Notes under the pieces: model-generated
The model's database searches: none
Seen by the model: the letters and a program-made list of their open reading frames with translations, nothing else
Told to the model about the DNA's origin: nothing
Origin: Flagellatimonas centrodinii
GTDB taxonomy: Bacteria > Pseudomonadota > Gammaproteobacteria > Nevskiales > Nevskiaceae
Assembly: GCF_016918765.2 (NCBI RefSeq)
Contig: NZ_CP092104.1
Location: 2,790,001 to 2,854,000, forward strand
Reading direction: 5' to 3'
DNA length: 64,000 bases
Shown here: in pieces, positions 1,892 to 3,766 of the stretch
How the letters are laid out: the number at the start of each line of letters is the position of its first letter
Numbering within the stretch: position 1 is the stretch's first letter
Program-made: the position numbers and the translations under genes

Positions 1892-1981
1892 ATGATCATG
1901 TCGTATGCCAAGCAGGTCTTCCCGGTGGCCCCCGGCCGCTGTGGTGCGCTGCGACTTCCGGGCCTGCGCCTTCTGCCGTAA
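1892..1981 (+). CDS. Putative leuA leader peptide (29 aa)
   Basis: A 29-codon ORF lies between pssA and leuA and starts 8 nt after the candidate -10 hexamer. Five of the last ten codons are leucine (CTG, CTT, CTG, CTT, CTG), interleaved with Arg and Pro, and two use CTT, an uncommon Leu codon in this GC-rich sequence. The last codons and the TAA stop fall in a small hairpin (1971-1988). Leu-codon clusters upstream of a leucine gene are the hallmark of ribosome-mediated attenuation. That role here is inference. A second ATG at 1898 is an alternative start. Confidence 0.55.
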   Translation: MIMSYAKQVFPVAPGRCGALRLPGLRLLP

Positions 1982-1988
1982 GGCAGAA
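1971..1988 (+). promoter_or_regulatory. Hairpin over the leader-peptide stop codon (attenuator candidate)
   Basis: The 7-bp stem TTCTGCC/GGCAGAA closes on GTAA, a GNRA-type loop that contains the TAA stop. A ribosome stalled on the last Leu codons would cover the left arm. Further hairpins follow before leuA: 2004-2023 (GCGCGG/CCGCGC) and 2054-2075 (ACGCG/CGCGT core plus GGC/GCC). No U-tract is present, so control, if any, may be translational or Rho-dependent rather than by intrinsic termination. Confidence 0.4.
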
Positions 1989-2095
1989 CGACGATCAGCG
2001 CCCGCGCGGGGCCCAAGCCGCGCAACCTGAACCGCTTATCCCCGAATCGCCACGGCGACGCGTTGAGCGCGTGCCGGAAGACCTGAGGTGCCCTC

Positions 2096-3766
2096 ATGGC
2101 CATGTTGACTGATCCCTCCAAGAAATACCGTTCCTTCGCGCCGGTTCACCTGCGCGACCGTACCTGGCCGGACGCGGTGCTCACCGCGCCGCCGATCTGG
2201 CTGTCGACAGACCTGCGGGACGGCAACCAGGCCCTCATCGAGCCGATGAATGCCGAGCGCAAGCTGCGCATGTTCGACCTGCTGGTGAAAGTGGGTTTCA
2301 AGGAAATCGAGGTCGGCTTTCCGTCGGCATCGCAGACCGAATTCGACTTTCACCGTCACCTGATCGATAACGGTCTGATCCCTGATGACGTCACCATCCA
2401 GGTCTTGACGCCGGCGCGGGATACCCTGATCCGCCGGTCCTTCGAGGCACTGAAGGGCGTGCCGCGGGCGATCGTGCACATCTATAACGCAGTGGCCCCG
2501 GTGATGCGGCGCGTCGTCTTCAAGATGAGCGAGGACGAGATCGTCGAGCTGGCCGTGTCGCACATCCGGCTGGCGCGCGAACTGGCCGAGGCCAATCCGG
2601 AGACCGACTGGCGGTTCGAATACTCGCCGGAGATGTTCTCGGGCACCGAGCTGGCGTTCTCCAAGCGGGTGGTGGATGCGGTGGTGGAGGCCTCCGGGGC
2701 AACACCGGAACGGCCGATCATCATCAATCTGCCGTCGACGGTGGAGCACTCGACGCCGAACATCTTCGCCGACATGGTCGAGTGGATGCATCGTAATCTG
2801 GCCCGCCGCGACGCGGTGATCCTGTCGATTCATCCGCACAATGACCGTGGCACCGGCATTGCTGCTGGCGAGTTTGCCTTGATGGCCGGCGCCGATCGCA
2901 TCGAAGGCTGCCTGTTCGGCAACGGCGAGCGCACCGGCAATTTCGACGTCGTCAACCTGGCGCTGAACCTGTACACCCAGGGCGTACACCCGAAGCTGGA
3001 CTTGTCGGACATCGACGAGGTGCGGCGGACGGTCGAGTACTGCAACCAGTTGCCGGTTCATCCGCGGCATCCCTATGTCGGCGATCTGGTGTTCACCTCC
3101 TTTTCGGGGTCCCACCAGGATGCGATCAAGAAGGCCTTCGATGCCCGCAAGGCCGACGATATCTGGGAGATGCCGTATTTGCCCATCGACCCGCTGGATA
3201 TCGGCCGTTCCTACGAGGCGGTGATCCGCGTCAACTCGCAGTCTGGCAAGGGCGGCATCAGCTACCTGCTGGAGCACGAGTACGGCTTGGTGCTGCCGCG
3301 TCGTCTGCAGATCGAGTTCTCGCAGGTGGTGCAGGCCGTCACCGATCTGTCGGGCAAGGAAGTGACCGCGTCTGAGATCTGGTCAATCTTCGAGCAGACC
3401 TACCTGAACGCGACCGCGCCCTTTGCCTATCGCTCGCATCATCTGGTGGAGGATTCGACCCAGGATGCGGTAATGCTGAACTGCGAAGTAATGGTGAATG
3501 GCCAGCCCAACAAGCTGCGCGGCGAAGGCAATGGTCCCATCGACGCTTTCGTCAAGGCCATGACGGATGTCATCGGGGCGCCGGTATCGGTGGTTGATTA
3601 TCACGAGCACGCACTTGCTGGTGGCGCGGATGCCCGCGCCGTGACCTACATCGAGCTGAAGGCGGGTGACGGGCGCACCCTGTTCGGCGTGGGTCAGGAC
3701 GCCAATATCGTGACCGCTTCGCTGAAGGCGATTCTGTCGGCGCTCAATCGCCTGGCCGCCAGCTGA
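2096..3766 (+). CDS. leuA: 2-isopropylmalate synthase
   Basis: Condenses 2-ketoisovalerate with acetyl-CoA, the first committed step of leucine synthesis. At 556 residues it is the long form found in Pseudomonas and relatives. The TIM-barrel catalytic domain contains the metal/substrate segment STDLRDGNQ near residue 40 and the HPHNDRGTG signature near residue 245. A C-terminal LeuA dimer (leucine-feedback) domain follows. The ATG at 2096 is preceded by GAGGTG at 5-nt spacing; the ATG at 2102 would be 11 nt away and is less likely. The leader peptide upstream may add transcriptional or translational control by leucyl-tRNA supply. Confidence 0.97.

Follow-up and report, generated by a model that had tools for sequence, protein, structure and literature searches.

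The DNA directly upstream of leuA in the window, by which we mean the whole 64-kb stretch that was analyzed, appears to encode a leucine-responsive leader of the attenuator type, in which ribosome stalling at leucine codons would control premature termination of transcription, most likely by Rho. We hold this reading with somewhat better than even confidence. In all probability, this is a leucine-sensing switch that is widespread, has so far escaped cataloguing and works without the customary terminator. Comparison supplies the leader ORF, its leucine and CTT content, the promoter spacing, the stop-codon hairpin (H1), the helices of a likely pseudoknot, the lack of any conserved terminator, the C-rich strand and the association with leuA; we infer the leaderless start, the response to leucine, the involvement of Rho and what the pseudoknot does.

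The leuA locus and the leader promoter

The window belongs to a Nevskiales genome whose nearest named relatives, as judged by LeuA, are Polycyclovorans, Solimonas, Sinimarinibacterium, and Hydrocarboniphaga. Based on names read from the translations, we take the gene order to be the 3' end of ilvC, a phosphatidylserine-synthase-like gene (pssA) ending at 1859, the leader, and leuA starting at 2096. All window features described here are on the + strand. The regulated gene, leuA (2096–3766), encodes a 2-isopropylmalate synthase of 556 aa, the first enzyme dedicated to leucine biosynthesis, an assignment based on its translation and on full-length homologs, and its start is preceded by the Shine-Dalgarno sequence GAGGTG (2085–2090).

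The promoter of the leader transcript (1856–1883), recognized from its sequence and from comparison within the Nevskiales, consists of a −35 box TTGAAC, a 16-nt spacer and a −10 box TATCAT, and is the sole sigma-70-like match between 1500 and 2600, a region for which shuffled sequences yield 0.2. The sequence-only reading of this DNA had pointed to this promoter-like motif, to a 29-codon ORF downstream with five Leu codons, two of them CTT, among its last ten, and to a hairpin with the stop codon in its GTAA loop and no U-tract; all three are present in the sequence. The ORF (1892–1981; assigned from sequence and comparison) starts with ATG at 1892, stops with TAA at 1979–1981 and encodes the peptide MIMSYAKQVFPVAPGRCGALRLPGLRLLP.

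In the window, the leader start codon lies 8 nt past the −10 box. In 41 of 42 leaders from the Nevskiales, the top-ranking −10 hexamer of the 90 nt searched upstream was located 6–10 nt 5' of the start codon, and a Shine-Dalgarno match, even one of 4 nt, was found in only three of the 42. Among 27 leaders from more remote relatives, roughly half have similar spacing. Based on this proximity of the −10 box, and on the fact that there is scarcely any Shine-Dalgarno match, we expect that the leader ORF is probably leaderless, with transcription starting at or within a few bases of its start codon.

Leucine codons of the leader ORF

Leaders of the same arrangement were found upstream of leuA in 42 cases in the Nevskiales, encoding peptides of 26–37 residues that typically end in Leu-Leu-Pro. 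The last ten codons in the window encode L R L P G L R L L P, and the control codons, assigned from the sequence and from codon counts, are CTG, CTT, CTG, CTT, and CTG (Leu 20, 22, 25, 27, and 28; 1949–1975). Five Leu in ten codons has by itself a probability of about 0.002 at 10.5% Leu, which is weak for a window-wide scan; that the cluster is certain follows from its conservation in relatives. Among 38 non-redundant relatives, 41% of the codons at −12 to −4, which lie outside the H1 arm, encode Leu, vs. 6.7% of earlier codons. The Leu codons of the run vary synonymously (CTG, CTT, CTC, CTA, and TTG), and CTT accounts for 50 of 140 of them (36%) compared to 1.9% of the Leu codons in leuA genes. 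The Leu enrichment, the synonymous variation and the excess of CTT argue that the run represents control codons, beyond any need of the RNA stem. The relatives have kept what characterizes such a leader, a short ORF in which codons for the end product are clustered. That the ORF arose by chance or reflects leftover coding constraint might be suggested by the fact that five Leu in ten codons are not rare in a window of 64 kb, but the conservation seen in dozens of groups at the family level refutes this explanation, and we give it practically no credence.

Two leaders from one genus (L011 and L035) have kept H1, the pseudoknot and the promoter spacing and have lost most of the clustered Leu (17 and 8% of the last 12 codons, respectively), so the RNA may act apart from the Leu codons. 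The ORF also contains a hairpin 5' of the Leu run (H0, 1920–1945), identified by folding against codon shuffles. The structure of H0 recurs in relatives with a different sequence (mean z −1.13 ± 0.14 in 38 leaders relative to codon shuffles), and by analogy with trp leaders it could be a polymerase pause hairpin.

The stop-codon hairpin and the likely pseudoknot

Hairpin H1 (1971–1988), supported by folding and covariation, pairs TTCTGCC (1971–1977) with GGCAGAA (1982–1988) and has the leader stop codon in its GTAA tetraloop; the 32-nt fold has an energy of −13 kcal/mol (z −3.1). The stop codon is in the H1 loop in nearly all relatives, as TAA, TAG, or TGA. In three leaders of one family (L021, L024, and L026) the loop is TTCG or CTCG, the stop is 9 nt further downstream and the stem is kept. 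For H1 and the pseudoknot helix S2 combined, both sides are changed in 21 cells, and the covariation score was attained by none of 500 shuffles, in tests that, like the permutations below, ignore the relatedness of the sequences; no slid structure reached that score. Covarying stem-loops are found within reach of a stalled ribosome. A stem flanking H1 (P0), formed by the Leu region with a segment 3' of H1 and spotted by eye in several species, was dropped as it was unsupported in the pairing test (z +0.4). In the leuA 5' regions of related genomes, the comparison by which the sequence-only reading proposed that its claim be checked, both the Leu ORF and the covarying stems are conserved, and because they are, the Leu-leader reading is not refuted. 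That reading had also claimed two further hairpins before the leuA ribosome site. The first (2004–2009/2018–2023) is conserved and is likely one helix of a pseudoknot, while the second (about 2053–2077) is not kept in relatives.

The likely H-type pseudoknot (2000–2023) is indicated by covariation, complementarity and the same topology in other Gammaproteobacteria. Its helix S1 pairs GCC (2000–2002) with GGC (2010–2012), S2 pairs GCGCGG (2004–2009) with CCGCGC (2018–2023), and its loops L1 and L3 are C (2003) and CCAAG (2013–2017), respectively. The S2 helix begins about 24–30 nt past the start of the H1 loop and is GCACGG/CCGTGC in the Nevskiales and GCGCGG/CCGCGC in the genus of the window. 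The 3–4 nt just 5' of the S2 5' arm can pair with the first nucleotides of the S2 loop, forming S1, whose pairs differ by lineage (GCC:GGC, GGCC:GGCC, GCCG:CGGC, GCGG:CCGC, ACCC:GGGT, and CCC:GGG). The order of the helices is x-y-x'-y', L1 has about 1 nt and L2 0–1 nt, and L3 is often A-rich. In the Nevskiales, the complementarity of S1 to its own partner was 10.3 vs. 8.0 ± 0.4 for permuted partners, with none of 2000 permutations as high. One fixed S1 register pairs in 79% of the cells of the MAFFT alignment A1 and shows zero double changes alone, because the register differs among lineages; the support for S1 is therefore the own-complementarity test.

The other Gammaproteobacteria share H1 (CTGCTGCC-GTAA-GGCAGC), and their second element is mostly different, with the consensus CCCUGGCGAGGGnnAAACGC. 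This consensus parses as the same pseudoknot (S1 CCCU:AGGG, S2 GCG:CGC) and has covarying variants, such as GCCCU/GACG/AGGGC/CGUC; the own S1 score in this group was 9.6 vs. 6.9 ± 0.4, again with 0 of 2000 permutations as high. Supported in this way in two groups of different sequence, S1 and S2 likely form an H-type pseudoknot, although in principle they might instead form at different times.

The pseudoknot may be a binding site for a factor, may protect or place the region where Rho loads, or may, once transcription has terminated, stop 3' exonucleases. Pseudoknots can have regulatory roles of their own, as in T4 gene 32, where one serves protein autoregulation. By this model, the pseudoknot upstream of leuA would be the sensor (a leucine riboswitch) or a protein site (autoregulation), and the leader ORF would be a helper or an independent input. 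Its strong conservation in sequence and structure, its often A-rich L3 and its retention in leaders that have lost the Leu run are consistent with such a role, but the Leu run and the rare CTT have been retained almost everywhere, and the pseudoknot is tiny, with helices of 3–6 bp, and differs in sequence between the two groups; we consider this explanation improbable. With similarly low confidence we raise the idea of a two-input switch class, widespread in Gammaproteobacteria, comprising a leaderless Leu ORF, a hairpin at the stop codon and an H-type pseudoknot that leucine, a protein or the transcription machinery would recognize, setting termination before leuA.

Termination and the region before leuA

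No intrinsic terminator was found in the leader of the window, and a terminator-like site was present in 0 of 42 Nevskiales leaders and in 7 of 58 other leaders, at scattered places. The earlier suggestion of an attenuator without a U-tract is borne out by this lack of a terminator in the window and of a conserved one in relatives. The leuA leaders of the Burkholderiales, which have a Leu leader and a clear GC hairpin with a T-run, could suggest that this is a classical attenuator whose terminator was overlooked, but these counts make that very improbable. No co-evolving long-range pairing of the kind expected for a mutually exclusive antiterminator was found, and folding of 30 sequences in different ribosome states also showed none, though S1 and S2 might in principle act as such alternatives.

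The same leucine-sensing leader might have a translational output, with stalling altering the RNA folds that cover or expose the ribosome site of leuA, for which the actinobacterial LEU element provides a precedent (PMC1262725). The lack of a terminator and the fact that the Shine-Dalgarno sequence of the window can sit in a small hairpin (2084–2096) are both in keeping with this possibility. Against it, the Leu run and the leuA Shine-Dalgarno sequence showed no co-evolution (z −1.1, p 0.14), pairing of the Shine-Dalgarno region with neighboring sequence is, if anything, weaker within a species than when the neighbors are taken from other species (z up to +2.5), and when 30 sequences were folded with the ribosome at simulated positions, the predicted opening of the leuA site did not switch consistently between ribosome states. 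Based on the folding and pairing tests a Shine-Dalgarno sequestration switch was rejected as a candidate, the earlier suggestion of an output by masking of the leuA translation start is disfavored, and we regard a translational output as unlikely.

The favored Rho-dependent output would involve a C-rich, G-poor, weakly structured stretch (2024–2053; fold −2 kcal/mol), which by its composition and folding is a candidate Rho loading region. Over the 20–30 nt past the pseudoknot, the 42 Nevskiales relatives have C at about 0.40 (0.35–0.46) and G at about 0.14 (0.12–0.18), and in the other group C is 0.24–0.38 and G 0.10–0.16 over 20 nt. The leader has the sequence attributes expected of a Rho attenuator, C-rich, G-poor, unstructured RNA and no intrinsic terminator. 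Rho access, which the sequence-only reading had also suggested, is favored by the conservation of this stretch and remains a candidate from sequence. The stretch is only 20–30 nt long, shorter than a typical rut site, which counts against the Rho model, and that model alone leaves the role of the pseudoknot unexplained.

Distribution of the element and LeuA types

A first covariance model, built from Nevskiales leaders as RNA only, found one strong site per Nevskiales genome, just upstream of leuA wherever coordinates were comparable. It matched 59 of 369 sampled Gammaproteobacteria at E ≤ 0.01, and 28 of 29 inspected loci (excluding that of the window) were directly before leuA. The second model, built from 27 of these loci, matched 109 of the 369 genomes (about 30%) at E ≤ 0.001; E-values of such home-made models are rough. 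Of the weaker sites, 33 of 40 were upstream of leuA, the other seven being six apparent chance matches and one second copy. Overall, 61 of 69 inspected sites were before leuA, mostly of the non-orthologous type described below. A well-formed second copy of the leader and pseudoknot (L239; G168 C96:4375–4458) has no leuA within about 900 nt downstream.

Outside the Gammaproteobacteria, model R2 gave weak matches only, and seven of eight examined loci were without leuA. One weak match (L232; G460 C18:48155–48238) is about 200 nt before a leuA from a different class within the phylum, making a wider distribution of the element possible. No Rfam 15 family, including the Leu leader families, matched at gathering score, and the gammaproteobacterial element is undescribed in the open-access literature that we searched, which excludes the comparison of proteobacterial attenuators by Vitreschak et al. 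(2004).

The leader also precedes a non-orthologous LeuA type in the Nevskiales (about 28–30% identity; G004, G030, G036, G037, and others). In one genome both LeuA types are in tandem behind the leader (G035 C22:90374–93690). As read from these sequences, leuA appears to have been replaced in place under a retained leader.

Comparison with known systems

Among described systems, the actinobacterial LEU element, compared here by description, comes closest, with a Leu leader and a pseudoknot that precede leuA (Seliverstov et al., 2005; PMC1262725); in Streptomyces lividans, the leader LeuL1 is leaderless and without a terminator (PMC8079986). The element described here shares with these a Leu-run leader before leuA, a pseudoknot, the lack of an intrinsic terminator and, with S. 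lividans, the leaderless start. The likeness in pseudoknot and Leu-run leader is one of topology only. The base stem of the LEU element, between the Leu run and the leuA Shine-Dalgarno sequence, is unsupported here (z −1.1, p 0.14), and, unlike in the LEU element, H1 around the stop codon precedes the pseudoknot.

Similar to the leuL attenuator of enterics and Shewanella (for Shewanella, PMC2659441), our element has a Leu leader upstream of leuA and hairpins within reach of the translating ribosome. It differs from leuL in having no terminator/antiterminator pair, no U-tract and no Rfam match, and in having a pseudoknot and, probably, a leaderless start. The Burkholderiales leuA leaders (L044–L066 and L082–L084) likewise have a Leu leader, a short −10-to-start distance, with the −10 often near the ATG, and LeuA of the type in the window, but they are rich in the rare CTA and have a true, clear intrinsic terminator with a T-run. 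They were rejected as members of the same family since model R2 gives no match to them, and are considered a separate one. Their terminator is an ordinary one, so leaders both with and without a terminator serve similar genes. In Herbaspirillum (L067–L081) there is a conserved element upstream of leuA with a long hairpin of the GGTTGCCTGGCC/GGCAACC type, and in Paraburkholderia (L091–L110) a CTACTACTAG hairpin is situated inside the Leu leader; neither has an obvious terminator.

Short sensing ORFs without an intrinsic terminator are known from E. coli tnaC, where termination is by Rho, and leaderless ones precede regulated genes in mycobacteria, as polycysteine ORFs. While tnaC senses free tryptophan via an arrest peptide, the end of the leader peptide here varies (LLP, LLS, LLA, and VPA) and the RNA stem is kept, and for this reason a TnaC-like nascent-peptide arrest was rejected as the main mechanism. 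We know of no stop-codon hairpin plus pseudoknot in trpL of Sinorhizobium meliloti. That leader, whose transcript starts at the ATG (PMC7298713), is similar in being a leaderless leader ORF of a proteobacterial attenuator and differs in being a Trp system.

Proposed mechanism and significance

In the mechanism that we propose, transcription would start at or near the leader start codon, so that the ribosome loads straight onto the 5' end. Charged leucyl-tRNA would be sensed by the ribosome at the Leu run, with its enrichment in rare CTT, and the position of the ribosome would set whether H1 forms beside the pseudoknot. When leucine is present, the ribosome would finish and depart, H1 and the pseudoknot would stand, and transcription would end early, most likely via Rho, in the exposed C-rich RNA that precedes leuA. 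When leucine is scarce, a ribosome halted on the Leu codons would cover part of the pyrimidine-rich leader as well as the 5' arm of H1, and the polymerase would continue into leuA. When Pseudomonas putida loses TruA, a tRNA pseudouridine synthase, its LeuA rises 4.2-fold (PMC7822408). This effect would be indirectly consistent with Leu-codon control of leuA in a gammaproteobacterium, a reading that is ours and not that of PMC7822408.

The probable leaderless start, the likely pseudoknot and the apparently wide gammaproteobacterial distribution go beyond the sequence-only reading. Control of leuA outside the enterics has been little described. If our model is true, the element would represent a second solution to leucine attenuation, with a pseudoknot replacing the terminator and a sensing ORF that is probably leaderless, and it lends itself to testing whether attenuation can work through Rho or through a pseudoknot. 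As the leader is found before two non-orthologous LeuA types, the regulatory leader appears to outlast the gene under its control.
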